From an uncultured Pseudomonadota bacterium (GTDB lineage Bacteria > Myxococcota_A > UBA796 > SXON01): a DNA stretch of 50,401 nucleotides. The notes below the pieces were generated by a model. That model had not been told where the DNA came from. It saw only the letters and a list, made by a program, of their open reading frames with translations, and did not search any database. The stretch lies in the NCBI GenBank assembly GCA_903844155.1, contig CAIMSU010000242.1, forward strand, positions 1 to 50,401, given 5' to 3'. Each line of letters starts with the position of its first letter. Positions within the stretch are counted from its first letter, which is position 1. Shown here in pieces: positions 14,991-34,689 of this stretch. The position numbers and the translations under genes are program-made.

Positions 14991-15039
14991 CCCGCTGAGG
15001 TATCAAAACCGACGTCGTCGCTTTTGATACCTCAGCGGG
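14991..15039. terminator. bidirectional rho-independent terminator, 18-bp perfect stem
   Basis: CCCGCTGAGGTATCAAAA (14991-15008) and TTTTGATACCTCAGCGGG (15022-15039) are perfect inverted arms around a 13-base loop containing the palindrome CGACGTCG. The arms supply T-tracts in both directions. It lies just after the dihydroorotase stop and before the stop of the converging radical SAM gene, so it can end both transcripts. Confidence 0.85.
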
Positions 15040-15066: not shown

Positions 15067-16494
15067 CTAGGTGGGGAATTTCGCCCAGGAGTCGGTGGGT
15101 CGCAAGAGCGCGTTGTACTCGCAGAAGCTCGTTGCAACGCCGTTGGTGTCCATCAGGTGGTGGCAGCAGTTGGCGATGCGGTCCTGGTCGTAGGTGTAGC
15201 GGTCCATGAACGGCTTGATGGCGATGGTGAAGATGTCGGTTGACCGGACGAGGCGCTTGCCGGCGTTCGCGACGACGCTGCGCAAGGACCGGGGCTGGGT
15301 AGCCATGACGCCGCGCAATTCGTCGGTTGATAGCATCGTTTTGTACGCGACCTGGTTCATCACCGCGTCGAGGTCGATCCACGGCATGAGGTTCTGGACG
15401 AGGCCGAAGCGCCGGGCGAACAGCGTGATCCAGCCGCAGTTCGGATGGCTGCACGGGATGGGCTCAAAGTCCTTGTCGCCCAGCCGGAGGCCGGATTGGC
15501 GGACCACGGCCTTGACGATATCGGAGAGCGTGGAGCGACGCATCGGGTCGCGGGCGATGTCGTAGCGGCCCGACCAGGTCGCGGGTTGCAGCGCGACAAC
15601 CTTGATGTGGTCGTGCTGAGCCGCGACGCGAACCACCTGCCCGACGGCCTCGGCGTTGGTGTCCACGTCGATGGTCATCGTGAGCTGAACGTGAAGGCCA
15701 AGCTCGCCACAGAGCGCGATGACGCGGTCCTTGGCCACCTGCGGGTCGGCATTCCGGAGCTTCGGGTTCCCGAGTTGCCCGTCGTACTGGAGCAGGACCA
15801 TCAGCTTGTCGCGGTAGGGGACAACGCCCGCTGCCACACGCGAAAAGAGCAGCCCGTTCGTCGGCAAGTAGATCTTCTTGACCGTCGGCTGGCGATGCAG
15901 GAAGGCGACGAGGCGCTCATAGTCGGGGTGGAGCGTGGCCTCGCCACCGGTGAGCTGGACAGAGTCGAGCCCGCCTTTCTGGGCGATCAACGCAGTGAGT
16001 CTGGCCTCAAAGTCGGCGAGGGGGAGGAAGCGGTCGCCCTTCGCATCCGCGTAGCACACCGCGCACGCGAGGTTGCAGGCGTTGGTGACCTCGACGAGGA
16101 TGGTGCAGGTCTTGTTCCCGGACTGGTCGGTCGGGCCGCAGGAGCCGCTCTCGCAGCAGGTGCCCAGCTCGGGGATGGTGACGAGCCGGTCGAGGGCGTA
16201 GGCCCTGCCATTCTTGTCCTTGTTCGAGAGGTGGTACCAGCGCGCGTCGTTCTCCCAGACCGCGAGGGAGGGGCCGTGCTGCTGGCAGCGCTTCGTGGCG
16301 AGCACGCGCCCATCGTGCTCGTAGACGATCGCGGGCACGTAGGCGAGGCACTCGGGGCAGAGGCTCACCGTCGTCTTGAGCGCGCGACTCAGCGCCGGAC
16401 CGCCGAAAAACGTGACTGCGGCGGCTTCGTCCATCCCGCGCAGCACGGTGGCGATGCGGTCGATGGGGGAGCCGGTCAGCATCGGTAGCTTCAT
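15067..16494 (-). CDS. radical SAM protein of the tetraether-lipid-synthase (Tes)-like type
   Basis: The product is 475 aa. An N-terminal zinc/iron-type site CPEC (46-49) with a later C70-x2-H73 precedes the radical SAM cluster motif CNLACAVC (140-147, CxxxCxxC) in TNACNLAC. QLTGGEATLHPDY is the glycine-rich SAM-binding part. Toward the C terminus CSHPNC and NCCHHL...C offer extra cluster ligands. The rubredoxin-like CxxC...CxxH region plus CSHPNC resembles, from memory, archaeal Tes (MJ0619 family), which joins isoprenoid lipid tails by C-C bonds; a related radical SAM family is possible. ATG 16494 overlaps the previous gene's stop by 4 bases, and it is the last gene before the terminator. 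Radical chemistry on lipid chains is inference. Confidence 0.8.
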   Translation of the reverse strand: MKLPMLTGSPIDRIATVLRGMDEAAAVTFFGGPALSRALKTTVSLCPECLAYVPAIVYEHDGRVLATKRCQQHGPSLAVWENDARWYHLSNKDKNGRAYALDRLVTIPELGTCCESGSCGPTDQSGNKTCTILVEVTNACNLACAVCYADAKGDRFLPLADFEARLTALIAQKGGLDSVQLTGGEATLHPDYERLVAFLHRQPTVKKIYLPTNGLLFSRVAAGVVPYRDKLMVLLQYDGQLGNPKLRNADPQVAKDRVIALCGELGLHVQLTMTIDVDTNAEAVGQVVRVAAQHDHIKVVALQPATWSGRYDIARDPMRRSTLSDIVKAVVRQSGLRLGDKDFEPIPCSHPNCGWITLFARRFGLVQNLMPWIDLDAVMNQVAYKTMLSTDELRGVMATQPRSLRSVVANAGKRLVRSTDIFTIAIKPFMDRYTYDQDRIANCCHHLMDTNGVATSFCEYNALLRPTDSWAKFPT

Positions 16495-17216
16495 CCTGCC
16501 ATCCTCTCCATGAACCACGCACAGGCGGTGTACAGCGCGCGCCGGTCGGGGCGCTGTCCATGGCGGGCGACCCAGGTTCGGCATTGCCTCGCGGAAAAGC
16601 GCCAATTCGCGGCGGCCTCCGCGCGGCGATGCAGGTCGCGCGCTTCGTGGAATTCCCGGCCGGTCAGCAGCATCTGCGCCCACCGCGCGGTGTAGTCGAC
16701 ATGCCGCTCCTCGTCCTCCTGCACGCGGGCGATGACCGGCGCCATCGTCGTCCCGGTGCCGGAATCCAGCCCTTCACAGGCGTCTTTGTGCCAGGCGACG
16801 GACTGGGCGATGCGCGCTTCGAGAAAATGGGCGTGGAGGAGGAAGTGGCCCAGCTTCCGGCGTCGCTCGTTGGGGGAATCACCTTCTCGAACGCCGAACG
16901 TGTCGCCGCCGGCTTGCCGGATCTGGTGGTTGTAGACGTCGCCGTCGTCGACGTCGTCCAAAACCCGCCCGCCCAGCCCCTCGATCAAGGCTGCGTACAT
17001 CTTCGTGTGCCGCTCCTCGTCCGCCTGGTGGCGTCGCAGCAGCCCGGCCAGCTCGGGATCCGGCGCGTCATTCGCCGGAAAGTAGTCGGCGACGGTCTGG
17101 GGATGGCGCTCGCCCGCGCGGTAGAGGTTCAGCGCCCACGCGTGCGCGACGGGGTCGGCCGCGAGGTCGGTGTGCCACAAGCGTTTGACGGCGGTGACGA
17201 TCAATGGGAACCGCAT
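16491..17216 (-). CDS. ferritin-like di-iron protein
   Basis: The product is 241 aa. Four helices with the ordered ligands E, ExxH, E, ExxH can be seen: AGERH, DEERHTKMY, HFLEARIAQ and DEERHVDYT. This is the carboxylate-bridged di-iron pattern of ferritin-like oxidases, desaturases and hydroxylases (MiaE/Coq7 type) rather than an iron-storage shell. It overlaps the Tes-like gene by 4 bases and the upstream membrane protein by 16, so it belongs to the operon. Its likely role is an oxygen-dependent oxidation linked to the radical SAM step, but the substrate is unknown. ATG 17216 is chosen as the start of recognisable helical sequence. Confidence 0.8.
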   Translation of the reverse strand: MRFPLIVTAVKRLWHTDLAADPVAHAWALNLYRAGERHPQTVADYFPANDAPDPELAGLLRRHQADEERHTKMYAALIEGLGGRVLDDVDDGDVYNHQIRQAGGDTFGVREGDSPNERRRKLGHFLLHAHFLEARIAQSVAWHKDACEGLDSGTGTTMAPVIARVQEDEERHVDYTARWAQMLLTGREFHEARDLHRRAEAAANWRFSARQCRTWVARHGQRPDRRALYTACAWFMERMAG

Positions 17217-17539
17217 ACGGCCACGATCAAGCCGAAGAACAACGCAGTCCCGAGTGCTCCGAGGAGCGCGAGGCCGCCGAGGCCCAGGCCGGTCGCGAAC
17301 AGGACGATGGCGATGGCCCGGACCCACCCGGCACGTTGGGCGAGCAGCGCGGTGGCGAGCACGGAGGTCAGGGTGAGCCCGCCAGCGGCGTCGAAGAGAA
17401 TGGTGGCGGTGGCGTCGAGGCTGTCCGTCGGCGCTGTGAGTACGCCCACCAGGACGCCGGCCCCGAACCCGCCGATCTGCACGGGAATGAGCGGCAGGGC
17501 GAGCAACCAGATGGCCCTAGGCGGCGACGGATCGTCCAT
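17201..17539 (-). CDS. small membrane protein of the lipid-type operon
   Basis: The product is 112 aa with three hydrophobic stretches (about residues 9-35, 50-67 and 72-108), rich in Gly, Ala and Leu, and no catalytic motif. It overlaps the Lgt-like gene upstream by 23 bases and the ferritin-like gene downstream by 16. That tight packing, with the codon preference of its neighbours, supports it as a real gene. No family is recognised. Confidence 0.7.
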   Translation of the reverse strand: MDDPSPPRAIWLLALPLIPVQIGGFGAGVLVGVLTAPTDSLDATATILFDAAGGLTLTSVLATALLAQRAGWVRAIAIVLFATGLGLGGLALLGALGTALFFGLIVAVCGSH

Positions 17540-18233
17540 CGACCCCTCCTTTCCGGAGGTGAAAGGCGAGGAGTCCGGCGACCATCATCAACGCGGCGAG
17601 CGCCTGGTAGACGCTGAACACGCCAAGCAGGTGCGGCGTGTCTCGCAAAGGCTCCGTCGACATGCGGAACGCCCCGTACAGCACCAGGTACATGCTGAAA
17701 ATCCGCCCGACAAGCAGCTTGTTTCGGACAAGGCTCACGAAGGCGATCCCACAGAGCGCGTGGAACCCCATCTCCACATAAGGAGCGGGAAAGCGCCCGA
17801 AGTCCTCACCCGCGTAGTGCATCGCGAACGGTCCGTCCCACCGGATCCCCCGGCAGCACCCGCCCAGCACACAGCCGATCCGGCCGATCGCCACGGAGAA
17901 CGGGAGGATCTTCGCAAAGTGATCATTCGGGGGCAGCGGGTAGCGCAACAGCGGCTTGAGTGTTTCCGCCACGAGAAAGCCGCCAAGCAGCCCGCCGACG
18001 ATGGACCGACCGGATGTCCACCACGAAACACTCGCTGGCAACGCCGCAAATGGCCAGCCGTAGTCGCCCGCCAGCTCCGCGAGCTTCGCGCCAACGACCG
18101 CGCCGAGCAGCGTGCAGAGCTGCAGCCCGCGGTAGACATTCCGGTATTCCGCCGGGATCTTCTGGCTGGCGGGGAACAGCAGCGCGAGCAGGATCGCGAG
18201 TACGACGGGGATCGCGTAGCCGGGAACGATCAC
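17517..18233 (-). CDS. Lgt-like membrane protein (prolipoprotein diacylglyceryl transferase family)
   Basis: The product is 238 aa with about seven membrane segments. It has the Lgt-type pattern GRSIVGGLLGG, the signature-region GRIGCVLGGCCRG and a late FRMSTEPLR. True Lgt moves a diacylglyceryl group from phosphatidylglycerol to lipoprotein cysteine, using a His in HGGLIG and Arg in GRIGN. Here the His position is Val and GRIGN reads GRIGC followed by a Cys pair, so this is a divergent paralog, not the housekeeping enzyme. It could handle a phospholipid head group or diacylglycerol unit. The GTG at 18233 gives a 4-base overlap with the upstream stop; GTG 18245 is possible. Confidence 0.8.
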   Translation of the reverse strand: MIVPGYAIPVVLAILLALLFPASQKIPAEYRNVYRGLQLCTLLGAVVGAKLAELAGDYGWPFAALPASVSWWTSGRSIVGGLLGGFLVAETLKPLLRYPLPPNDHFAKILPFSVAIGRIGCVLGGCCRGIRWDGPFAMHYAGEDFGRFPAPYVEMGFHALCGIAFVSLVRNKLLVGRIFSMYLVLYGAFRMSTEPLRDTPHLLGVFSVYQALAALMMVAGLLAFHLRKGGVDGRSVAA

Positions 18234-18556
18234 GCGGTGACCCACGCCGCCAAGAGGAAGAGCATGAGCGAGAGGTGCTCCTTTGCGTGGTAGTCCGCCT
18301 CGACCGCCGGGAGATCACGGTGGTAGCCGAACTCGTCGGCGGCGCCTGCGAGGGCGAACAGGCCCGCGAAGATCGGCAGGCGAACGGGGTCGAGGCGGAC
18401 GGCTGCGGTGACCAGGCCGATGAGCAACAGGCCGATCACGCCGTGCAGGACGTGCTCTCCGCGGGTGACGACGCGCCCCCTGAAATGGAACGCGTTGTCC
18501 CGCCACGCGTAGTACCCGAAGGTCGCGAGCGGGACGGCGAGGAGGGCGAGGCGCAC
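18230..18556 (-). CDS. small membrane protein with His/Glu cluster
   Basis: The product is 108 aa from a GTG start at 18556. A longer frame runs on to 19225, but that part only shadows the hydroxylase gene. Hydrophobic segments lie near residues 1-14, 38-53, 60-73 and 96-107. Between the last two is EFGYHRDLPAVEADYHAKEH, with three His and four acidic residues that could bind metal. It starts 7 bases after the hydroxylase stop and overlaps the Lgt-like start. No family is recognised. GGAG lies 12 bases before the GTG, so the ribosome site is weak. Confidence 0.6.
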   Translation of the reverse strand: MRLALLAVPLATFGYYAWRDNAFHFRGRVVTRGEHVLHGVIGLLLIGLVTAAVRLDPVRLPIFAGLFALAGAADEFGYHRDLPAVEADYHAKEHLSLMLFLLAAWVTA

Positions 18557-18563
18557 GTCGGGA

Positions 18564-19403
18564 TCATACTCCGCGGAGCGGGGCTTCTTGCGCGTCCGCG
18601 ATGAACCGGCGGAACGGGAACGCGAGCTGCCCGGGGAGGCCGTCGGGTAGGGGCTCGCCGGCGCCGAATTGTGCCGTCGCGACTTCGGGGAGGTCAAACG
18701 TGCCGAAGATGAGGTCCCAGACCGGGAATACGCCGGCGAAGTTGGCGCTGGGGCGGTCCTCGGCGTGGTGACGGCGGTGGAGCGCGGGCGTGGCCAGGAG
18801 GCGGGCGAGGGGACGGCCGGGGACGCGCGGAATGGCCAGGTTGGCGTGGAGGAACATGTCAAAGAACAGGAGGAACGGGCCGGTCGCCATCCAGACCGGG
18901 ACCGGCACGCCGCACGCGGCGAGAAGGAGCCCGACGCCGACGTTGTCGACGAGGTCGTCGACGGGGTGGATGCGCGCGGCGGAGAGCCAGTCGAGCCGGG
19001 TCGGGCTGTGGTGCACCGCGTGGAAGGGCCAGAACCAGCGGGTGTGACGGAGGCGGTGGTTCCAGTAGTTGACGAGGTCGCCCGCGAACAGCGCGAAGAA
19101 ATACTGCGCCAACACCGGGGAGCGGCCAATCCCCCAGGGCACCGTCGCCAGCGCGGGCAATGCCCCGATCGGCGTCGATGCCAGGCCCGTCGCCATTGCC
19201 ACCTCCACCACCAGGCCGACGGCAAGCGCTCGTGTGAGGTTCCCCGTCACGAACGCCGAGAATGGCCACCAGAGCCAGTCGCTCAGCCTCGCGCGCGTCC
19301 ACTTGGGGGCGGGCGCGCGCTCCGGGGAAACCGACTCCAGCAGCGCGGAGAGGCCGCCGCAGAGCACAAAGAGTGCCGTCATCCCGAGGACAGAGTCCCC
19401 CAC
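18564..19403 (-). CDS. sterol desaturase / fatty acid hydroxylase family protein
   Basis: The product is a 279-aa integral membrane protein. The three His boxes of this di-iron membrane oxygenase family are present: HRLRH (116-120), HAVHH (128-132) and HRRHH (209-213), with an extra H186. Family members hydroxylate or desaturate sterols, fatty acyl chains, ceramides or alkylglycerol ethers using O2. The GTG start at 19403 lies 4 bases after the upstream dioxygenase-like gene's stop; ATG 19382 is an alternative. In this operon the most likely substrate is a membrane lipid chain or glycerol ether (inference). Confidence 0.88.
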   Translation of the reverse strand: MGDSVLGMTALFVLCGGLSALLESVSPERAPAPKWTRARLSDWLWWPFSAFVTGNLTRALAVGLVVEVAMATGLASTPIGALPALATVPWGIGRSPVLAQYFFALFAGDLVNYWNHRLRHTRWFWPFHAVHHSPTRLDWLSAARIHPVDDLVDNVGVGLLLAACGVPVPVWMATGPFLLFFDMFLHANLAIPRVPGRPLARLLATPALHRRHHAEDRPSANFAGVFPVWDLIFGTFDLPEVATAQFGAGEPLPDGLPGQLAFPFRRFIADAQEAPLRGV

Positions 19404-19407
19404 CGCC

Positions 19408-20211
19408 TCAGACCGCGATGGTCAGCGCCGCCGTCATGCCGGTCGTCGCGTCGCCGCTCATGGCAGCCTGCTCCAACGTATACCCGTCCGAGAAGCACTG
19501 ATCATCCGCGTTCTTCGTCGTGTTGTCGCCACCGGGGTAGAACTGCGTCGCCGTCGTGTAGACCTCTGTGTTGGTCGCATCCGGGAAGCACAGCTGGGTG
19601 GTCTTTGCGGGGGCTGCGCTCGCGTCCCGGAACACCTGCATGTGGATGTGCGTGCAACGACCGGGGTACCAGCCCGGGTAGATCGACGTGAACGTCACCT
19701 TGCCGGCCGCATCTGCGATCTGCAGGCCGCGCAGGTAGGTCGTGCCGGTCTGGTCCGGGCCTGTGGGCTCGCCAGCGTACTCCGAGTACAGGCCGTCCTT
19801 GTCGCAATGCCAGACCTCGACGATCGCGCCGGGGACCGGAATGCAGCCCGCAGCGACGTCGATGACGGTGAACGTGAGCGCCAGGGGTAGGCCAGTCTTG
19901 CCCTCCGTGATGTCGGCCCGGTAGTACGCGCTGTTGTCGATCATGCCGGTCTTGTCTGGGTAGGGGCCGGCGATCTCATCGGGCGTGACCGAGCACGCCC
20001 CCGTCCCGGAGTCTCCGCCCACGGAGTCGGCGGCCCCTGAATCGCCGCCGCCGGAGTCGGCATTGTTGGTCCCGCTTTCGCCCGTCACGGAGTCCGCTGC
20101 CGCCTTGCCGCGGCACCCTGCCAGGACCGCGGCTGCGCCGAGGCCGAGGAACCGAAACGTGAACTCGCGCCGGGTGGTCCCGACAACCGGATCGCTCGCA
20201 ACTCGCCGCAT
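19408..20211 (-). CDS. Tat-exported lipoprotein of the intradiol ring-cleavage dioxygenase fold
   Basis: The product is 267 aa. The N terminus has a twin-arginine signal (TTRREFTFRFLG, Arg14-Arg15) ending in a lipobox LAGC (Cys33), so it is folded, probably with iron, before export and is then lipid-anchored. A DSGGGDSG linker follows. The domain shows GPYP, then EVWHCDKDGLY (Tyr142) and YPGWYPGRCTHIH (Tyr182, Arg185, His188, His190), the non-heme Fe(III) ligand set of intradiol dioxygenases. The substrate is unknown; extracytoplasmic members need not act on catechol. It is the first gene of the minus-strand operon, with a GGAGAGG ribosome site before ATG 20211. Confidence 0.85.
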   Translation of the reverse strand: MRRVASDPVVGTTRREFTFRFLGLGAAAVLAGCRGKAAADSVTGESGTNNADSGGGDSGAADSVGGDSGTGACSVTPDEIAGPYPDKTGMIDNSAYYRADITEGKTGLPLALTFTVIDVAAGCIPVPGAIVEVWHCDKDGLYSEYAGEPTGPDQTGTTYLRGLQIADAAGKVTFTSIYPGWYPGRCTHIHMQVFRDASAAPAKTTQLCFPDATNTEVYTTATQFYPGGDNTTKNADDQCFSDGYTLEQAAMSGDATTGMTAALTIAV

Positions 20212-20441: not shown

Positions 20442-21764
20442 ATGCGGCACCCCTCCGTCCCACTCCTCGCCGTCTTCGCGCTCGTCGGCTGCGCCGGCCC
20501 CTCGCCGGGAGTGACCGAGTACGCGATGGACCTCGTCTGGCGGCCGAGCGCGGCGATGGCGACGTCGGGCGCAGTGGCGTGGGCCCCCACCAGCGAGGTC
20601 GCGGACGCGTCCGTCGAGTACGGCACCACGACCGACTACGGCCAGTCCGCCCCGGAGGTGGCTCCCGGAAGTTCGGTGATCTACGGCCTTTCTCCGGCTA
20701 CCACCTACCATTACCGCCTCGTTGGCGACGGGTGGGTCTCGGGCGATGAGACGCTGGTCACCGGCGCCGCGGCGTTGGGCCTGGCGCCCCTGCACCTCGT
20801 CGAGAGCGATGGGAGCGACTGGGGCCACTACCTGCTCACGACCACGTTCGTCTCCGGGCAGTCGGGCCAGATCCTCGTGCTGGATCCGAACCTCCAGCCG
20901 GTGTGGTGGTCGACGAGCCCGACGGATTTTGTGTGGAGCGCCAAATTCGCGGCGGACGGCCAGTCGATCCTGTACCTCCAGGGGGACGGCGGCGCGAACG
21001 CCAAGATCGTGCGGCTCTCACTCTCCGGCGAGGAGATCGCCCGCTACCCGACCCCGTATGGGCGTCACGCCTTCCTCGAGCTTCCGAACGGCGACATCGC
21101 CTACATCGCCTCGGACTCGGAGGTGTGGAACGGCCAGAACGTCGTCGGTGACCAGATCGTTGCCCTTTCGCCGGATGGCTCGTCGCGGGTGCTCTGGGAC
21201 TCCTTCAACGACCTCACGCCGGTACCGGCTCCCAATTGGTCAGGTTCGACCAACCCGCTCGGCGCGGACTGGACGCACTGCAACGGCCTCGCCTACGACC
21301 CGGACACCAACGCCTTCCTGATCTCCAGCTACTACCTGCACAGCATCTACAAGATCGACGCCGCCAACGGCGACATCCTCTGGCAGCTCGGCGGGACCGG
21401 CAGCGACTTCACCTTCCCCGATGATCCCGGCTTCGGCCCGCAGCACTCCCCGCAGTTCACCTCCGACGGCGTCCTCCTCTTCGACAACGACCAGGCCGGC
21501 ACGATCTCGCGGGTTGTCCGGTACGCCCTGGACGCGAACGCGGGCGTTGCAACCCGCAGCGCCGACTACCCCAACCCGGCCGGCGGCTGGTCCGCCACGC
21601 TCGCCTACGCGGACACGCTCCCGGGCGGCGACATCGCCTCGACCTGGGCCGAGCGCGGTGAGGCGATCGTGTTCGACCCGGACGGAGCGGTGGCCTGGCA
21701 CGCGCAGATGGACACCGGCGGGATGATGTTCGGGATGGATGTTTTCGACAGCTTCTACCACTGA
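20442..21764 (+). CDS. arylsulfotransferase (ASST)-like lipoprotein, propeller fold
   Basis: The product is 440 aa. It has a lipoprotein signal ending in LVGC (about Cys17), then a domain of about 90 residues like the N-terminal Ig-like region of purple acid phosphatase/ASST proteins (TTYHYRLVGDG), then a six-blade-type propeller with repeated LDPNLQPVWW, HAFLELPNGDIAYIA, THCNGLAYDPDTNAFLIS and GFGPQHSPQFTSDG. The last three resemble ASST blades that carry the catalytic His of sulfate-ester transfer. The activity is not proven; many relatives are uncharacterised. ATG 20442 is preceded by GAGG at 20429-20432. Confidence 0.75.
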   Translation: MRHPSVPLLAVFALVGCAGPSPGVTEYAMDLVWRPSAAMATSGAVAWAPTSEVADASVEYGTTTDYGQSAPEVAPGSSVIYGLSPATTYHYRLVGDGWVSGDETLVTGAAALGLAPLHLVESDGSDWGHYLLTTTFVSGQSGQILVLDPNLQPVWWSTSPTDFVWSAKFAADGQSILYLQGDGGANAKIVRLSLSGEEIARYPTPYGRHAFLELPNGDIAYIASDSEVWNGQNVVGDQIVALSPDGSSRVLWDSFNDLTPVPAPNWSGSTNPLGADWTHCNGLAYDPDTNAFLISSYYLHSIYKIDAANGDILWQLGGTGSDFTFPDDPGFGPQHSPQFTSDGVLLFDNDQAGTISRVVRYALDANAGVATRSADYPNPAGGWSATLAYADTLPGGDIASTWAERGEAIVFDPDGAVAWHAQMDTGGMMFGMDVFDSFYH

Positions 21765-21770
21765 TCCGGG

Positions 21771-23198
21771 TCAGTCCGCCGAGCTGCCGAGGGTCGCGAG
21801 GTGGGAGGTGAACCCCGTGAGGTTGCCTTCGAACTGCGCCGAAAACTGGACCTCGCCGGCGCTTGAAACCTGCGTGAGGACGCCGTCGCTCCCCCAGGCG
21901 ACGAGCATGTCGCCCGCGTCGTCGACGGGAACGACGCTGCCGGTGGTGATGTTCCTGTGGATGCCGCCGTCGTCGAAGTGCCAGGTGCGGGTGGCGCTGC
22001 GCGAGATCCAGTCGAGGTGGTAGACGGCCGCTTCGGCGGGATCGGCGGACGTTCCGGCGCCGTTGTCGAAGACCGCCAGCTGCTCGTCGTACGTCATGAG
22101 TAGGGGGGAGTGCTGGCGGGAAAAGGTCTCGCCATCCTGGAACGTCCAGTCTGAGTCGTCGCCGCCCATCGTCCAGTCCGCCAGTCCGGTCGTGGGATCC
22201 ACCATCGCCAGGGCATCGGCTTCGTAGAGCGAGAGCAGGACGTGGCCGCTCTGGGGGTCCACGCTGACCGAGTTCGTGTGCGGATACTGGGTGCTGACCC
22301 CGTCCGAGATCGCTGTCCCGGTGTACGGGAATTCGTCCCACGATGACCAGACGGTGCTCACGTCCGCGCCGTCCGCGGAAACGTGGAGGAGTCGGTCCCC
22401 GGTGACGTCCTGCGTGGCGCCGTCGTCGCTGTCCACGGGGCGTTCGTCGTACGCGAGCACGTACCAGCCGCCAGCGGGATCGGGGGTCAGGTCGTGGTGG
22501 GTCAGGGGGAGGGTCGCAACGGCCTCGGGTTGGCCGTCGAGCGCACACCGCCAGAGGACGGTGGTCTCCGGCGTCGCGTTGGCGAGCCAGAGCAACGAGT
22601 TCGAGTCCGCGTCGTACAACGCCCGAAAGTCGGCGATGTTGTTGACGGGCTGCCAGAACACGTAGCGTCCCTGACGGTCGAGCACCGCCACGACGGCTGC
22701 GGGGTAGGAGACGAGGACGGTCACGGTGTAGCCGCTGACGTCGTCCGTGGCCGCCGTGGTGATGTCTGGCTCGGGGATGTCGCTCGTCGGGGCGGCCGGG
22801 GTGACGTCGAGGGGGTCGCTGACGTACTCGGTGTCAGGGCCCGACGCCTCGACCGCCACCTGCCAGGAAAACCCGCCGGCGAGCCCGTCCAGCTCAACCT
22901 CGTGATGCAGGGCGCCGCCGGTCGTCGAGCCGGTGGCGACGTGGTCAAACGCCCCGCCCTCCCCGTACACGACCCGGCTCTCCGCGGGTTCCGGCGTGTC
23001 CCAGGTCACCACGGCGGCGGTGCGCCCCGCGACTTCTGTGACGGTCGCGTCAACCCGCTCGGTCGGCCCCGCGAGGGCCCGCGGGGGGCTGTCGTAGGCC
23101 GGGGCGTTGACGGGGCCAAGCGGGATGAGCGGTGACGTGCACCCGGTGGCGAGCGCGAGGACGGTGAGCGGCGCCAGGAGCGAACGCGCGGGGAGCAT
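21771..23198 (-). CDS. arylsulfotransferase (ASST)-like lipoprotein, second copy
   Basis: The product is 475 aa from ATG 23198, chosen because it starts a clean lipoprotein signal ending in LATGC; ATG 23222 is an alternative. An Ig-like region and a propeller follow, with VLDRQGRYVFWQPV, THHDLTPDPAGGWYVLAYD, QYPHTNSVSVDPQSGHVLLS and FSRQHSPLLM, lining up with the same blades of 20442-21764. The two genes converge with only 6 bases between their stops, so they are probably distant paralogs in tail-to-tail array. Substrate unknown. Confidence 0.75.
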   Translation of the reverse strand: MLPARSLLAPLTVLALATGCTSPLIPLGPVNAPAYDSPPRALAGPTERVDATVTEVAGRTAAVVTWDTPEPAESRVVYGEGGAFDHVATGSTTGGALHHEVELDGLAGGFSWQVAVEASGPDTEYVSDPLDVTPAAPTSDIPEPDITTAATDDVSGYTVTVLVSYPAAVVAVLDRQGRYVFWQPVNNIADFRALYDADSNSLLWLANATPETTVLWRCALDGQPEAVATLPLTHHDLTPDPAGGWYVLAYDERPVDSDDGATQDVTGDRLLHVSADGADVSTVWSSWDEFPYTGTAISDGVSTQYPHTNSVSVDPQSGHVLLSLYEADALAMVDPTTGLADWTMGGDDSDWTFQDGETFSRQHSPLLMTYDEQLAVFDNGAGTSADPAEAAVYHLDWISRSATRTWHFDDGGIHRNITTGSVVPVDDAGDMLVAWGSDGVLTQVSSAGEVQFSAQFEGNLTGFTSHLATLGSSAD

Positions 23199-23526
23199 GC
23201 ACCCGAAGTCTGCAAGTTTCATTCCGTCCGTATTGGGGCGAGCAGCGCGCGCGGAGGCGAGAAAAAACACGATTCATCCTTGGTGACGGCGTGAGGGCAG
23301 GGTCCGCTGGGTGACGTTTTTTGTCAACGCCTTCTTCAAACCCGGTGGCGCTTGACACTTTACGTCATCTTGACGCGGCGGGTGAAGGCCGGTCATGGCT
23401 CGCCGACGGGTGGTGGGATTGGCACAGGCGCTGGGCGTATTCCCCCGGGCTCGCGGAGGCCATCATCCAACGATAACAGCCTTAGTACCTGAATCGTTCG
23501 ACACTGGCCCGGTGCCGTCGCCCGGC
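23199..23526. promoter_or_regulatory. divergent region with paired TTGACA-N4-ACGTCA motifs
   Basis: The motif TTGACAAAAAACGTCA is on the minus strand at 23312-23327 and TTGACACTTTACGTCA on the plus strand at 23352-23367. They face opposite ways with 24 bases between, each toward one of the divergent genes. Each half contains TGAC...GTCA symmetry, so they could be binding sites or -35 boxes. A reading frame continues from 23395 to 23527, but its third positions are less GC-biased, so I do not count it as coding. Confidence 0.45.
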
Positions 23527-24393: not shown

Positions 24394-26010
24394 ATGCGGG
24401 TGCTTGGGCTCGCGCTCGGTGACGCTGGCGCTGCTGCGGCGCTGGTCGAAGACGGCATCGTCGTCGCTGCGGCGACGGAGGAGCGCTTCAGCCGGCAGCG
24501 CCTCGATCCCAACTACCCAGCGCAGGCGGTCGAATTCGTGCTCGGCGGCCGATCACCCGACGTTGTCGCCGCGTCCGGCGAACCGACGGAGCGCTTCACC
24601 CGGGTGCTGACGGCGTCGCTCGCCAGCCCCTTTCCGGCCGGCGCGGGAGCCTTTGTCCGCAACATGAAGGCCTGGATCGGACACCATCTCTGGACGCGGG
24701 ACAGCGTCAGCCGTCGCCTGGACGTCGACCCGGATCGCATCACCTTCGTGCCGCGCGACCGCGCGCTCGCCAAGCACGCGCTGGCGGCTGCGGGGTGGGA
24801 GCAGGGCACCGTCGTCGTCGCAGACACGGCGGGTGATTGGGCCTGCACGTCGACGCTCGCGATGACCCCTGCCGGCCTTCGCGTTGTCGAGAGCGTCGCC
24901 TACCCACACTCGCTCGGTCTCTTTGCCGCCACGATCGCCGGCTTGCTCGGCTTCGCCCTCGACGATCTTGAGCGGCTGCCCGCGTTGGCGGGGTTCGGAC
25001 GGCCCGTGTACGCAACGCGGATGCGCCGGATGCTGGTGGTCGCGACGGATCCCGGGAAGCCCGCCTACACCCTCGACCCCGCCATGTTCGACTTCGCGCG
25101 TCTGGCCGAGTGGCCGCGCTCCTCGCCGTGGACGGGCGGGCTGACCGACCAGCTTGGCGCGCCCCGCGATGCCCGTCGCCCGCTCCCGTTTCCCGGTCCG
25201 GTGGAGGCCGAGGATCAGCGCTACGCCGACATCGCAGCGTCGTTTGTGGTCGTCGTCGAGGAGGCCCTGACCGAAGTTTTCAAGCGCGCAGCCACGGCTG
25301 GGGCACCGTCGGCCGGGCTCTGCTTCACGGGCCCGGTCGCGGCGTGCGCGCCCGGTGCAGCTCGTATGGCAGTGGCCGCGGGGTTTGGCGAGGTGTTCAT
25401 CCCCGATGAGCCCGGGCCCGCAGGAGGGGCCGTCGGCGCGGCGCTGATCGTGGGTGCCACGCCCGACCGCGCCGACTCCCGCATGGCTGGGCCGTTCCTC
25501 GGGCAGGCCTACGACGAGCGCGCGGACGTGCTCGCGCTCATGCAGATGGACACCACCTGGTGGCAGCGCTGGCGCAAGCCGGGGTCGCGGCCGATCCGGG
25601 GCGCGCGCCTGGAGTTCTGCGACGCGCCCTCGCCCGCCATGGTCGCGGAGGAGCTCGTGGCTGGGCGGGTCGTCGGCTGGTGTCGCGGCGCGTTTGAGTG
25701 GGGCCCGCACGCGCGGGGCCATCGCTCGCTGCTGGCCGGACCGGAGTCTGCACCCGCGCTGCTCGCTGTTCGCGGTCAGCCGGCCTGGTGTCCTGTGGAG
25801 CTGGTCACGCAATCGGCGGACCCCGCGCTCAACGATGTCATCGCCGCCCACGCCGTGATCACGGGGATCGTCGGCCTCGCGCACGCCGATCTGTGCGAGG
25901 ATGATGCCCCGCTCGTCGCCTCGCCAGCGGACGCCGTGCTGCTGTTCATGCGCACGGACGTCGACACCCTCATCCTCGGAAACACGCTTTGCAGGAAGTT
26001 GTACCCATGA
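24394..26010 (+). CDS. carbamoyltransferase-like protein (NodU/CmcH family), degenerate sites
   Basis: The product is 538 aa with the two-part layout of O-carbamoyltransferases: an N-terminal Kae1-like ASKHA domain (VLGLALGDAGAAAALVEDG, then AAATEERFSRQRLD) and a C-terminal YrdC-like domain from about residue 400. Known enzymes use carbamoyl phosphate and ATP. Several signature positions differ: GHDAS reads GDAGA, HHLAHAASA reads RALAKHALAAA, GGVALN is replaced by TGPVAA, and GPRALGNRS reads GPHARGHRS. ADTAGDWA keeps the metal-side Asp. Activity may be lost or changed. It is followed at a 4-base overlap by the DUF5989 gene and then the SGNH hydrolase, a set often found together. Confidence 0.82.
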   Translation: MRVLGLALGDAGAAAALVEDGIVVAAATEERFSRQRLDPNYPAQAVEFVLGGRSPDVVAASGEPTERFTRVLTASLASPFPAGAGAFVRNMKAWIGHHLWTRDSVSRRLDVDPDRITFVPRDRALAKHALAAAGWEQGTVVVADTAGDWACTSTLAMTPAGLRVVESVAYPHSLGLFAATIAGLLGFALDDLERLPALAGFGRPVYATRMRRMLVVATDPGKPAYTLDPAMFDFARLAEWPRSSPWTGGLTDQLGAPRDARRPLPFPGPVEAEDQRYADIAASFVVVVEEALTEVFKRAATAGAPSAGLCFTGPVAACAPGAARMAVAAGFGEVFIPDEPGPAGGAVGAALIVGATPDRADSRMAGPFLGQAYDERADVLALMQMDTTWWQRWRKPGSRPIRGARLEFCDAPSPAMVAEELVAGRVVGWCRGAFEWGPHARGHRSLLAGPESAPALLAVRGQPAWCPVELVTQSADPALNDVIAAHAVITGIVGLAHADLCEDDAPLVASPADAVLLFMRTDVDTLILGNTLCRKLYP

Positions 26011-30716: not shown

Positions 30717-33181
30717 CATCCGGCGGCTCACCCTCAGGGGGCGCGCGGGACCCTGGAAGGACGGCGGATCCGCTCGTCCTCCCGTTCTCGGCGTTGGCGC
30801 TGTCGGATGTTCCCCGTGTGGGCGGCAAGAATGCGTCCCTCGGCGAGATGGTTCGTGCGCTCGCGGGCGAGGGGGTCTCGGTGCCGCCCGGGTTCGCCAC
30901 CACGGCGGACGCGTTCCGGGCGTTCCTGGCCCAGCCTGCCGACGATCCCCTGCGGGCGCGCATCGCACGGGCGCTCGTCGGCCTGGACACCCGTGACACG
31001 GACGCCCTCGCGCGCGCCGGCCTCGTTGTCCGCGACCTGATCCTCGCCTCGCCGCTGCCCGTGGATCTGGAGTCCGCTGTCCGTGCGGCCTACCGGCTGC
31101 TCGGCGAGGGGCGTGCCGACATCGCCGTTGCCGTCCGCTCCTCCGCCACCGCGGAAGACCTGCCGGATGCGAGTTTTGCTGGTCAGCAGGAGACATTCCT
31201 GAATATTCGCGGCGAGGCGGCGCTGCTCGACGCCGTCCGCAAGTGCATCGCCTCGCTCTACACCGATCGCGCGATCTCCTACCGGGTCGACAAGGGTTTT
31301 GCGCACGACGCCGTCGCGCTCTCCGTAGGCGTGCAGCGCATGGTTCGCTCGGACCTCGCCTGCTCGGGTGTGATGTTCTCCATCGACACCGAGACCGGCT
31401 TTGCCGATGCCGTGCTGATCTCCGGGGCCTGGGGCCTCGGCGAGACGGTGGTGCAGGGTGCCGTGAACCCGGACGAGTACCTCGTCTACAAGCCCGGGCT
31501 GGCGCGCAAGGAGGGCACGGCGATCCTGCAGAAGACGCTCGGCGCGAAGGAATTGAAGATGGTGTACGCCGGAGGCACGCGGGGGACGAAGACGATCCCG
31601 GTCGCCACGGCTGACCGCGACCGGTTCACGCTCAACGACGCGGAGGTGGTCACCCTCGCCCGCTGGGCGTGCGCGATCGAGCGGCACTACGCTGGTCTCA
31701 GGGGCACAGCGGCCTGCCCGATGGACATGGAGTGGGCGAAGGACGGGGAGACGGGCGAGCTGTACATCGTGCAGGCGCGCCCGGAGACCGTGCAGGCGCG
31801 AAAGCGCATTGACGTGCTTGAACGCTGGGTTTTGGACGGGAAGGGCGGCGAAGTGCTCGTCACCGGGCGCGCCGTCGGCGACCGCATCGGGAGCGGTCCC
31901 GTACGGCTCATCACCGACGTGCACCACCTCGCGAGCTTTGAAGACGGCGACGTGCTCGTGGCGGACCGGACGGATCCCGACTGGGAGCCGATCATGAAGA
32001 AGGCCGCTGCCATCGTCACGAATCGCGGCGGTCGGACCTGCCACGCGGCGATCGTGAGCCGCGAGCTTGGCATCCCCGCGGTCGTTGGGGTGGGCGACGG
32101 GACGACGAGGCTGAAGGCAGGCCGGCAGGTGACGGTCGCGTGTGATCAGGGCGACGAAGGGCGTGTATTCAAGGGTGCGCTGCCGTTCCATGTGGACCGC
32201 ACGCCGCTGCGGGAAGGGGATCACGAACTCGCCCGTCCGCGCACGAAGATCATGATGAACGTCGGGAATCCGGCGGAGGCGTTCCGACTCTCCCAGCTCC
32301 CCAACGACGGTGTCGGCCTCGCCCGCCTGGAGTTCATCATCAGCAGTTGGATCGGCGTGCATCCCCGCGCGCTCATCGACTACCCGACCCTCGCCCCCGA
32401 CCTCCGCCGTCGCATCGCCGAGGCCGCCCGGGGCTACGAGCCCGGTCCGGACTGGTTCGTCGACAGGCTCGCGCAGGGCGTCGGCACGCTGGCGGCGGCG
32501 TTCGCACCGCGCCCGGTCATCGCCCGGCTCTCCGATTTCAAGACGAACGAGTACGCCCACCTCCTCGGGGGCGAGGCCTATGAGCCGAAGGAGGAGAACC
32601 CCATGCTCGGGTTCCGCGGCGCCTCGCGGTACTACGATCCGCGCTACCGCGATGCCTTCGCGCTGGAGTGCCGCGCGATGAAGCGCGTTCGCGACGAGAT
32701 GGATCTGACCAACCTCATCCTCATGGTGCCGTTCTGCCGCACCCCGGAGGAAGGCCGGCTGGTGATCGCCGAGATGGCGAAGCACGGCCTGGTGCAGGGC
32801 CAGAACGGCCTGCAGATCTACGTGATGTGCGAGATCCCCTCGAACATCGAGCTGGCCGACGAGTTCGCCGATGTGTTCGACGGCTTTTCCATCGGCAGCA
32901 ACGACCTGACCCAGCTCATCCTCGGGCTGGATCGCGACTCGGAGCTCGTCGCCCGGCTGTTCGATGAGCGGAGCCCGGCCGTCACCCGAGCCATCGCGCG
33001 CGTCATCAAGGCCGCCCACGCGCGCGGTCGAAAGATCGGCATCTGCGGCCAGGCTCCGAGCGATCATCCGGACTTCCTGCGCTTCCTCGTCGGCGAAGGC
33101 ATCGACTCGATCTCGCTGAACCCCGACACCGTGCTGCGCGGCACGATCGAGGCGCTCGCCGCAGAGGCCGCCCTGCGATGA
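30713..33181 (+). CDS. ppsA: phosphoenolpyruvate synthase
   Basis: The product is 822 aa (E. coli PpsA is 792). It converts pyruvate and ATP to PEP, AMP and phosphate. Domains in order: the ATP-grasp PPDK-N part with GGKNASLGEM and AVRSSATAEDLPDASFAGQ, the swivelling His domain GGRTCHAAIVSRELG with the catalytic His, and the PEP-binding barrel with SIGSNDLTQLILGLDRDS and the catalytic Cys in GICGQAPSDHPDF. The GTG at 30713 is coupled to the previous stop, and the stop overlaps the next ATG (ATGA). This places gluconeogenic PEP formation in one transcript with formate dehydrogenase. Confidence 0.96.
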   Translation: MTSGGSPSGGARDPGRTADPLVLPFSALALSDVPRVGGKNASLGEMVRALAGEGVSVPPGFATTADAFRAFLAQPADDPLRARIARALVGLDTRDTDALARAGLVVRDLILASPLPVDLESAVRAAYRLLGEGRADIAVAVRSSATAEDLPDASFAGQQETFLNIRGEAALLDAVRKCIASLYTDRAISYRVDKGFAHDAVALSVGVQRMVRSDLACSGVMFSIDTETGFADAVLISGAWGLGETVVQGAVNPDEYLVYKPGLARKEGTAILQKTLGAKELKMVYAGGTRGTKTIPVATADRDRFTLNDAEVVTLARWACAIERHYAGLRGTAACPMDMEWAKDGETGELYIVQARPETVQARKRIDVLERWVLDGKGGEVLVTGRAVGDRIGSGPVRLITDVHHLASFEDGDVLVADRTDPDWEPIMKKAAAIVTNRGGRTCHAAIVSRELGIPAVVGVGDGTTRLKAGRQVTVACDQGDEGRVFKGALPFHVDRTPLREGDHELARPRTKIMMNVGNPAEAFRLSQLPNDGVGLARLEFIISSWIGVHPRALIDYPTLAPDLRRRIAEAARGYEPGPDWFVDRLAQGVGTLAAAFAPRPVIARLSDFKTNEYAHLLGGEAYEPKEENPMLGFRGASRYYDPRYRDAFALECRAMKRVRDEMDLTNLILMVPFCRTPEEGRLVIAEMAKHGLVQGQNGLQIYVMCEIPSNIELADEFADVFDGFSIGSNDLTQLILGLDRDSELVARLFDERSPAVTRAIARVIKAAHARGRKIGICGQAPSDHPDFLRFLVGEGIDSISLNPDTVLRGTIEALAAEAALR

Positions 33182-34689
33182 CCCAGCGGCTCCTCGGATG
33201 GGCCGGCCGGCAGGCGCCGACGGCGCTCGCTGGAACGGCGCTCGAGGATCTCGCCGGGGGCGTCGACGCCGAAGCCGTCGCGCGCAGACGGGGCCTTCCG
33301 CGCGCTGCCGTCGGGGGGATCTCCAGCTTCTACGACCAGCTTGACCCGGCGCTGCGCGTGTGTGACGGCACCGCATGTCACTACGCCGGTGGTCCGGCCC
33401 TCGCCGCTGAGCTTGGGGCCGGCGTGGTGCGCTGCCTCGGCCTGTGCCACGATGCCCCCGCGCTCCGGGTCGGCGACACGGTCGCGGGTGCCTCGGACAA
33501 TCCCCTGTCCATCGCCGGTTTTCCGGCCTCGCACGCCCCGGCACGGCGCAGTCTGGTGGACCCGCCGATCCTGCTCCGGAACGTCCTCGGCGCGCGCGTT
33601 CAGCCGGCCGCCGAGTACGAGATGCCCGATGGCGACGCGATCCTCGCGCTGCTCGACGCCTCCGGCCTTCGTGGCCGCGGTGGCGCGGCCTACCCCACCG
33701 GCGCCAAGTGGCGGAGCGCGCGAGACACCCCCGCAGACCTGCGCTACGTCGTCGTGAACGGCGATGAGGGCGATCCCGGCAGCTTCGTCGACCGCGTGCT
33801 GATGGAGGAGGACCCGCACGCCATCCTCGCGGGGATGCAGGCCTGCGCGCGGGTGATCGGGCGCGGGGCGAGCAGGTCGGGCGCACCGGCGCGCGTCCAC
33901 GGGATCGTGTTCGTACGCGGCGAATATCCGCGAGCGCGGGCGACGATGGCTGAGGCGGCCGCCGAGGCCCACGACGCCGGCTGGCTCGACGCGGACTTCG
34001 AGGTAGAGGTCCGCGGCGGCGCCGGCTCCTACGTTGTCGGCGAGGAGACGGCGCTTTTGCGGGCGATCGAGGGCCTGCGCGGGGAGCCGTCGCCAAAGCC
34101 ACCGTACCCGGCGCAATGCGGGCTGTACGGTCTGCCGACGGTCGTCCAGAACGTGGAGACGCTCGCGCAGGTGCCGTGGCTGGTGCGGAACGGGCGACGG
34201 GCGGACACGAAGGTCGTGAGCCTCTCCGGCGCCGTCGCGAGGCCCGGGCTGGTGGAGATCGCCCTTGGAACGCCGCTCTCGCGGGTGCTGGCGGAGGGTG
34301 GCGGGGGCCCTGCCGCCGGGCGGCGCTGGAAGATGGTGCTGATCGGCGGGCCCATGGGGCGGGTCCTGCCGGTCGACCGGTTTGACACGCCGCTTGGCTA
34401 CGACACGCTCCCCGGCCTCGGCCACGCCGGCGTTGTCGTCCTCGACGACACCGTCTCCGCGAGAGACCTCGCCTTGCACCTCATGGACTTCGCTGCCGCC
34501 GAGTCCTGTGGAACCTGCACGCCCTGTCGCGTCGGCACCGGCCTCCTCGCCCGCGCGCCCGACCGCGTCGCCCTCGAGCGCCTCTGCGACACCCTGGAGA
34601 TCGGCAGCCTGTGCGGGTTTGGGCAAGGCGTACCGCGCCCCCTGCGCGACCTCCTCAGCCATTACGGCTCGGAGCTGTACCCGTGTTGA
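33178..34689 (+). CDS. fdsB: NAD-linked formate dehydrogenase beta (diaphorase) subunit, NuoEF-like
   Basis: The product is 503 aa. Residues about 1-115 are a NuoE-like [2Fe-2S] domain with four Cys (CDGTAC and CLGLC). The rest is NuoF-like: GRGGAAYPTGAKW (FMN site), VVNGDEGDPG and GGAGSYVVGEETAL (NADH site), and the [4Fe-4S] site SCGTCTPCRVG with a later LCGFGQ. Such subunits pass electrons from formate dehydrogenase or hydrogenase to NAD+. The E and F parts are fused, unlike the separate FdsG and FdsB of Cupriavidus. Its ATG overlaps the ppsA stop and its stop overlaps the alpha subunit start. Confidence 0.9.
   Translation: MTQRLLGWAGRQAPTALAGTALEDLAGGVDAEAVARRRGLPRAAVGGISSFYDQLDPALRVCDGTACHYAGGPALAAELGAGVVRCLGLCHDAPALRVGDTVAGASDNPLSIAGFPASHAPARRSLVDPPILLRNVLGARVQPAAEYEMPDGDAILALLDASGLRGRGGAAYPTGAKWRSARDTPADLRYVVVNGDEGDPGSFVDRVLMEEDPHAILAGMQACARVIGRGASRSGAPARVHGIVFVRGEYPRARATMAEAAAEAHDAGWLDADFEVEVRGGAGSYVVGEETALLRAIEGLRGEPSPKPPYPAQCGLYGLPTVVQNVETLAQVPWLVRNGRRADTKVVSLSGAVARPGLVEIALGTPLSRVLAEGGGGPAAGRRWKMVLIGGPMGRVLPVDRFDTPLGYDTLPGLGHAGVVVLDDTVSARDLALHLMDFAAAESCGTCTPCRVGTGLLARAPDRVALERLCDTLEIGSLCGFGQGVPRPLRDLLSHYGSELYPC

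Follow-up and report, generated by a model that had tools for sequence, protein, structure and literature searches.

A conserved six-gene cassette with a Tes-like radical SAM enzyme, an LGT paralogue, and a small membrane protein, and its possible role in membrane-lipid modification

The window, a 50,401-nucleotide stretch of DNA from an uncultured bacterium, contains a run of seven minus-strand genes, six of which form a cassette conserved in distantly related bacteria. These six encode a four-helix protein, an LGT-family protein, a small membrane protein (X), a ferritin-like protein, a radical SAM enzyme homologous to Tes, and a hydroxylase-family protein. We tentatively propose that the cassette makes a modified membrane lipid, in which the LGT paralogue would load X, and Tes-type radical chemistry together with oxygen-dependent chemistry would alter the chains. 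The initial annotation knew of no described system with such a gene set, and a literature search, with most subscription papers outside its reach, also found no description of one.

All seven open reading frames of the run were found in place, and so was the spacing reported for them, with gaps of 4 and 7 bases and overlaps of 4, 23, 16, and 4 bases; the first 4-base overlap assumes that the LGT gene starts at 18233. The features are as follows.

14991..15039, no strand: inverted repeat of 24 nt (96% complementarity between the arms, 1-nt spacer), a candidate terminator for both directions
15067..16494, minus strand: Tes/TrsS-type radical SAM enzyme (475 aa; cassette core)
16491..17216, minus strand: ferritin-like di-metal protein (241 aa)
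17201..17539, minus strand: X, small membrane protein (112 aa; C-terminal end FFGLIVAVCGSH; proposed lipid acceptor)
17517..18245, minus strand: paralogue of the LGT family (PF01790; alternative starts 18245 and 18233)
18230..18556, minus strand: four-helix membrane protein (108 aa)
18564..19403, minus strand: fatty-acid-hydroxylase superfamily membrane protein (279 aa; PF04116)
19408..20211, minus strand: Tat lipoprotein with an intradiol-dioxygenase domain (PF00775; same run, probably outside the cassette)

Four of the seven proteins scored above the Pfam cut-off (PF04055, PF01790, PF04116, and PF00775), and the Pfam search gave no family for the other three, the ferritin-like and four-helix proteins among them. 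The motifs previously described for the radical SAM, LGT, hydroxylase, ferritin-like, and Tat lipoprotein products were all located in the translations. The run had been said to end at one terminator. A near-perfect inverted repeat does lie at the end of the operon, between it and a convergent gene, but a terminator scan did not flag it, so a single terminator for the run is plausible only.

The seventh gene encodes a protein with a Tat signal and lipobox (RREFTF...LAGC) and a PF00775 match at 43.7 bits. It is the only listed gene without a match in any other cassette locus; its earlier inclusion in the system was therefore rejected, and it probably lies outside.

The cassette was found, whole or split, in 23 genomes of Myxococcota, Verrucomicrobiota, Planctomycetota, and Gammaproteobacteria, and the order (four-helix protein)-LGT-X-ferritin-like-radical SAM-hydroxylase is kept across all four groups. 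The co-occurrence count suggested by the initial annotation gave a strict result: the ferritin-like, LGT, and radical SAM proteins occurred together in an identical set of 7 of the 379 Myxococcota genomes, with a chance probability of ~2e-29 if genomes are taken as independent. The association of the genes thus exceeds chance. Where the operon is split, the missing genes were found elsewhere in most such genomes. Two loci, L066 and L074, were considered as solo radical SAM systems, a reading rejected for these two (not for L069) because LGT-X-ferritin-like genes lie on another contig. The six genes appear to be a mobile cassette that moves jointly between distantly related bacteria; a plasmid collection searched with the ferritin-like protein gave no match. 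Cultured carriers are Lysobacter dokdonensis DS-58, Pleionea sediminis, and Roseiconus nitratireducens, and probably also the isolate Sandaracinus amylolyticus. The hypothesis is therefore open to experiment, with these isolates as material for testing the pathway.

The radical SAM protein (PF04055 at 43 bits, with an HMPTM zinc ribbon) carries the motifs CNLACAVC (C140/C144/C147), C46PEC49 with C70xxH73, and C348SHPNC353. Its profile aligned over the full length with the Tes structure 7tol (E 4e-66). The Cys residues of the CX3CX2C and rubredoxin CX2CX20CX2H sites are conserved in 21/21 orthologues and the rubredoxin His in 19/21. The C-terminal cluster Cys, the labile Met, and a nearby Tyr, matched to Tes by alignment, are likewise kept in all 21 cassette proteins. 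These results bear out the claim that the enzyme is Tes-like, with homology over its whole length and with the radical SAM and C-terminal cluster residues retained. By contrast, the N-terminal [4Fe-4S] cluster of Tes (three Cys and one His) has lost its His and third Cys in 21/21, and most of the cassette proteins have a different pattern in this region, (T/A)DQxxNK(T/S)C.

Against the NCBIfam Tes profile (NF045702), the window protein scored 178 bits and two other cassette proteins 157-198 bits, below the curated cut-off of 450. The TrsS profile (NF045646) scored slightly higher at 197 bits, also below its cut-off (490). The proposed comparison with Tes therefore held in its full-length match and not in family assignment, and filing the enzyme as either Tes or TrsS was rejected. 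In a tree that included Tes letters taken from the profile alignment, with Mss absent, the cassette orthologues formed one clade (support 100/100); Tes sat on a long branch, so its placement is unsure. One Pirellulaceae locus (L092) encodes a fusion of an LGT domain with a Tes-like radical SAM domain. In a related radical SAM subclade, 12 of 16 loci contain an LGT gene and 9 a lipobox protein. The ligands of the C-terminal cluster are missing from this lipobox-linked subclade, which makes the parallel with the cassette imperfect.

It is improbable, in our view, that the enzyme belongs functionally on the TrsS side and acts on a cofactor or metal-linked compound, with the membrane partners serving in transport or anchoring. 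Such a role would agree with the top NCBIfam score of TrsS, for which a 2026 review gives no function (PMC13188914), and with sister clade 2, in which 26/27 loci share another conserved neighbour, a methyltransferase in the locus checked. It agrees poorly with the LGT association and the LGT-radical SAM fusion, with a partner gene from the hydroxylase family, and with the finding that a lipid enzyme, but no cofactor-maturing enzyme, matched over the full length. Given the full-length Tes homology, the kept sites, and the neighbourhood shared by four phyla, neither an outright best match to a non-lipid family nor an unconserved neighbourhood was found.

X, with its invariant terminal Cys beside the LGT gene, had been missed by the initial annotation. 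In 24/24 copies, its C-terminal end consists of a transmembrane helix followed by a Cys that is located 2-9 residues from the end of the chain. X was present in 15/15 gaps between the LGT and ferritin-like genes, as opposed to 0/6000 shuffles. It adjoins the LGT gene both in intact operons and where the two are split from the remaining genes, and a second X stands beside the ferritin-like-radical SAM pair in two split operons. The invariant Cys and the adjacency to LGT suggest a dedicated lipid-loading step. X does not fit the canonical lipobox [LV][ASTVI][GAS]C. Its motif is loose, with V, I, L, T, or F frequent at -1, which makes cleavage by LspA unlikely, and only 2-9 residues follow the Cys, leaving no mature lipoprotein part. 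Lgt acts at the periplasmic face on a Cys that ends an N-in helix (PMC8689077, PMC4728403). Judged from charge, which gives a trend only, most X proteins would likewise have N-in orientation with the Cys at the far end of the helix, the geometry of an Lgt substrate.

Small conserved peptides typically adjoin radical SAM genes in RiPP systems. X might accordingly be a precursor peptide that the radical SAM enzyme modifies, for example by a cysteine crosslink, while the other proteins finish a membrane-bound peptide. Conservation in X lies at the C-terminal end, as such a system would allow, and SkfB was a distant second PDB match of the radical SAM protein. We consider this reading quite improbable, since SkfB matched the core alone and the enzyme has the domain plan of Tes, no RiPP recognition domain was found in the Pfam search, X is mainly a membrane helix with a single conserved Cys, and two of the partners, LGT and the hydroxylase-family protein, are enzymes of membrane lipids.

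The LGT paralogue scored 79.9 bits against PF01790 (cut-off 24.9), carries the motif GRIGCVLGGCC, and missed both curated equivalog cut-offs (54.3 vs 334 bits and 45.3 vs 118.9). Counterparts of E. coli Y26, R143, Y235, R239, E243, and R246 are retained, those of the essential Arg143 and Arg239 (R122 and R194) being invariant in 15 cassette LGT proteins. H103 and N146, both essential in E. coli Lgt, are not kept; at the position of the catalytic His103 of HGGL, the cassette proteins have V, T, A, or M. All five LGT proteins in the window's genome are missing this His, and its loss was therefore rejected as proof against a transferase. The GCC motif was rejected as a system-specific mark, because it is also present in the LGT protein that scores highest in this genome.

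The ferritin-like protein has two Glu and two ExxH as candidate di-iron ligands, E36 (nearly invariant) and E67xxH70, E133, and E169xxH172 (all invariant), together with many further conserved His residues. Its AF2 model (pLDDT 90.6) gave ferritin-superfamily folds in Foldseek with probability up to 1.0 and all E >0.001, and ligands and model agree on a di-iron four-helix bundle. For the four-helix protein, neither a Pfam family nor a PDB fold match was found. Its AF2 model (pLDDT 95.7) has four helices, and D20, H24, R28, E34, H38, D74, H79, E86, and H90 are invariant in the alignment. The hydroxylase-family protein (PF04116, 97.7 bits, above cut-off) keeps the His boxes H116xxxH120, H128xxHH132, H186, and H209xxHH213 in 90% or more of 12 members. 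In most other cassettes, its gene lies next to that of the radical SAM enzyme.

From these residues and partners, we infer the chemistry, substrate, and step order of a pathway. The LGT paralogue would draw a diacylglyceryl unit from an inner-membrane phospholipid at the outer face and join it as a thioether to the conserved C-terminal Cys of X. The radical SAM enzyme would then activate a saturated alkyl chain by hydrogen abstraction and, through its C-terminal iron-sulfur cluster, form a new bond at the activated position, as in Tes, which forms its bond via a carbon-sulfur intermediate (PMC9433317). Oxygen-dependent steps on that lipid would fall to the ferritin-like and hydroxylase-family proteins, and possibly also to the four-helix protein. 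A more specific version, which we regard as rather doubtful, makes X a lipid-carrier peptide that a specialised Lgt loads with diacylglycerol and whose chains the radical SAM enzyme and its oxygen partners rebuild, giving a peptide-borne and perhaps membrane-spanning product. The lipid-tail pathway originally suggested thus gains from the Tes homology and the four-phylum neighbourhood; tail joining, membrane-spanning lipids, and ether lipids found no support, and the N-terminal Tes cluster is lost.

Single-helix accessory subunits are common, and X could simply anchor the soluble enzymes of a pathway that works on ordinary phospholipids, joining or functionalising their tails to give membrane-spanning or otherwise changed lipids; the LGT paralogue would load diacylglyceryl onto a small molecule or just bind lipid. 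Tes and the bacterial Mss do act on free phospholipids (PMC9433317, PMC13274423), and hydroxylase-family members such as OlsE, to which the cassette protein has a weak match, use free lipids. We judge this free-lipid route rather unlikely, because it leaves unexplained both the helix-end Cys in every copy of X and the X-LGT pairing in split operons.

If the X-loading pathway is true, it would be new, with radical chemistry on the C-H bonds of lipid tails while the lipid is held by a membrane peptide, and would represent lipid biosynthesis of a kind without earlier description. The poorly understood bacterial relatives of Tes would gain a defined gene set and the uncharacterised LGT paralogues a function. 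The link between LGT and Tes-like radical SAM proteins, fusion included, bears on the origin of bacterial membrane-spanning lipids.

Among known systems, the predicted Skillet-1 lipocone (PMC12419801) resembles the cassette in having a dedicated membrane enzyme that would lipidate the lipobox-like GS protein of its own operon; its enzyme is unrelated, the residue is Ser and not Cys, and a radical SAM partner is not mentioned. The cassette paralogue shares with Lgt the fold family and six active-site counterparts (Y26, R143, Y235, R239, E243, and R246), whereas it is without H103 and N146 and would pair with one mini-protein and not with all lipoproteins. TrsS, a radical SAM (seleno)protein, aligns over the full length with the best NCBIfam score (197 bits), but the window protein falls below its cut-off, and the cassette enzymes form a separate clade with different partners. 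Mss, the bacterial membrane-spanning lipid synthase, is reported to have the catalytic architecture of Tes and acts on bacterial lipid tails (PMC13274423); compared by description only, its proposed partners Ger/PlsA were not seen in the cassette. Tes (GDGT-MAS; MJ0619, PDB 7TOL) has the same full-length domain plan and shares the rubredoxin site, CX3CX2C, the C-terminal cluster Cys, the labile Met, and the Tyr. The cassette enzyme differs in its low score (178 bits, cut-off 450) and in the lost N-terminal His/Cys pattern, and it is bacterial and encoded in a fixed operon with oxygen-type enzymes, LGT, and X.

The seven minus-strand genes of the window were found with the coordinates, spacing and motifs that the initial annotation had given, and that observation was strengthened by what follows. 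Pfam assigned PF00775 to the first gene (dioxygenase-like), PF04116 to the second (hydroxylase), PF01790 to the fourth (LGT-like) and PF04055 with a zinc ribbon to the seventh (radical SAM), but no family to the third (four-helix), fifth (small membrane protein X) or sixth (ferritin-like). As for the proposed terminator, a 24-nt inverted repeat lies beyond the end of the operon, although the terminator scan did not flag it. The gene heading the run was present in none of the other cassettes:

window 19408-20211, minus strand: Tat lipoprotein with an intradiol-dioxygenase domain

Two convergent arylsulfotransferase-family genes adjoin the cassette (20442-21764, plus strand, and 21771-23270, minus strand). 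The window also holds a carbamoyltransferase-family gene (Carbam_trans_N and C; 24394-26010, plus strand) and, in tandem, genes for a NuoF-like protein and a molybdopterin oxidoreductase (33178-37313, plus strand), a pair that looks like an NAD-dependent formate dehydrogenase.

A profile (A1) built from four radical SAM sequences retrieved 49 loci from GTDB genomes, ~20 of which were orthologues with 41-57% identity (74% for one partial locus); the remainder, termed clade 2, showed about 30-36%. The recurring order among orthologues was four-helix protein, LGT, X, ferritin-like protein, radical SAM and hydroxylase, with the four-helix gene occurring singly or twice (as a fusion in L064); unlike this order, the hydroxylase gene lies upstream in the window. 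The order was seen in Myxococcota, Verrucomicrobiota, Planctomycetota and Gammaproteobacteria, and the cassette, whole or split, in 23 genomes (A1 loci plus loci from a further search). This sparse distribution across four phyla suggests horizontal transfer.

Co-occurrence was borne out when the same 379 Myxococcota genomes were searched with three cassette proteins: the ferritin-like protein and the cassette LGT (each >280 bits) and the radical SAM protein (>640 bits) coincided in the identical seven genomes. Three weak ferritin-like matches in other genomes (45-53 bits) were left out of this count, and the eighth radical SAM genome, G061, holds a clade 2 member that is itself in the profile. 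The chance of the coincidence is ~2e-29 with genomes taken as independent draws, and its true significance is weaker because genomes share ancestry. Apparent exceptions mostly resolved: the missing genes of the L059, L062, L066 and L074 genomes were found on other contigs, and neither the ferritin-like nor the LGT gene was found in the L069 genome. In the congener G001 (locus L043/L075), a genome search found neither of these two genes, and the locus reflects either decay of the cassette or an error in assembly:

L043, 1763-2555: C-terminal 45% of the radical SAM gene, adjoining a piece of the hydroxylase gene

Tes, to which the initial annotation had likened the radical SAM protein, ranked first among solved structures in single-sequence (E 2e-36) and profile (E 4e-66) searches, the latter aligning over the full length. 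All 21 cassette proteins retained the rubredoxin and radical SAM cysteines, together with the Cys, Met and Tyr of the C-terminal domain that align with their Tes counterparts; the Tes N-terminal cluster pattern was not conserved. Tes carries a carbon-sulfur intermediate on its C-terminal cluster, and its M439A and Tyr459 variants are still active (PMC9433317), so the conserved Met and Tyr do not prove mechanism. NCBIfam scores were 197 for TrsS and 178 for Tes, both well under cut-off. In the tree, the cassette proteins formed one clade (100/100 support), sister to clade 2 (L077-L104). Of 27 clade 2 loci, 26 share a conserved downstream neighbor, which in L044, the one locus checked, is a methyltransferase. 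An FAD disulfide-reductase also occurs there.

The His boxes of the hydroxylase were conserved. The ferritin-like protein carries a complete di-metal ligand set and weakly matched Pfam ferritin, rubrerythrin, AurF and desaturase families; its confident model resembled ferritin-like folds, with no match at E < 0.001. The four-helix model (pLDDT 95.7) matched no known fold. Judged by sequence position, its invariant D, H, E and R lie at one bundle end, and the two similar sets among them (D20-H24-E34-H38 and D74-H79-E86-H90) suggest a metal site.

A small ORF, X, lies between the LGT and ferritin-like genes in every cassette readable there (15 of 15 gaps tested vs 0 of 6000 shuffles). In two split-operon genomes, one X directly follows LGT and a second precedes the ferritin-like gene. 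Each of the 24 copies closes with a hydrophobic helix, then a Cys and 2-9 further residues, and the charge distribution mostly, if weakly, favors a cytoplasmic N-terminus. Lgt approaches its substrate from the periplasm and acts on a Cys placed where a helix of this kind ends (PMC8689077, PMC4728403), so X may be the natural acceptor for the cassette LGT's lipid.

In the cassette LGT, the counterparts of Y26, R143, Y235, R239, E243 and R246 were conserved, and those of H103 and N146 were not. His103 is essential in E. coli Lgt but absent from all five LGT-family proteins of the window's genome (contigs C166, C370, C228, C268 and C242), so its loss in the cassette paralogue does not demonstrate that this protein is inactive. 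The LGT-radical SAM link reaches beyond the cassette. In a Pirellulaceae MAG (L092, 9266-11410), a single 714-aa ORF encodes both a Tes-like radical SAM enzyme and an LGT-family domain. In a separate Myxococcota radical SAM subclade, an LGT gene lies near 12 of 16 loci (chance about 5e-23, assuming five LGT genes per genome), and nine encode a lipoprotein of one family (about 200 aa), with an ALWACxP lipobox in nearly all cases:

L049, 7987-11038 (own genome, C268): subclade LGT, ALWACxP-lipobox lipoprotein and TrsS/Tes-like radical SAM
L048, L105, L108, L109, L110, L112, L117 and L120: further loci with these three genes

The C-terminal cluster ligands are lost in this LGT-linked subclade, so its chemistry must differ from that of the cassette. 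Separately, in L046, L047, L107, L115 and L121, Tes-like radical SAM genes occur in pairs or triples, accompanied by FabG-like reductases and a small membrane protein that bears a W-x-C motif (plus ACP and ketosynthase-like genes in L107); these groups likely represent another lipid pathway.

Of the pathway first proposed, modifying or joining membrane lipid tails, the lipid part stands as probable, and the joining of tails counts as one of several options. The most specific idea open to testing is that X is loaded with lipid. In the open-access literature searched, no described system combines these parts.
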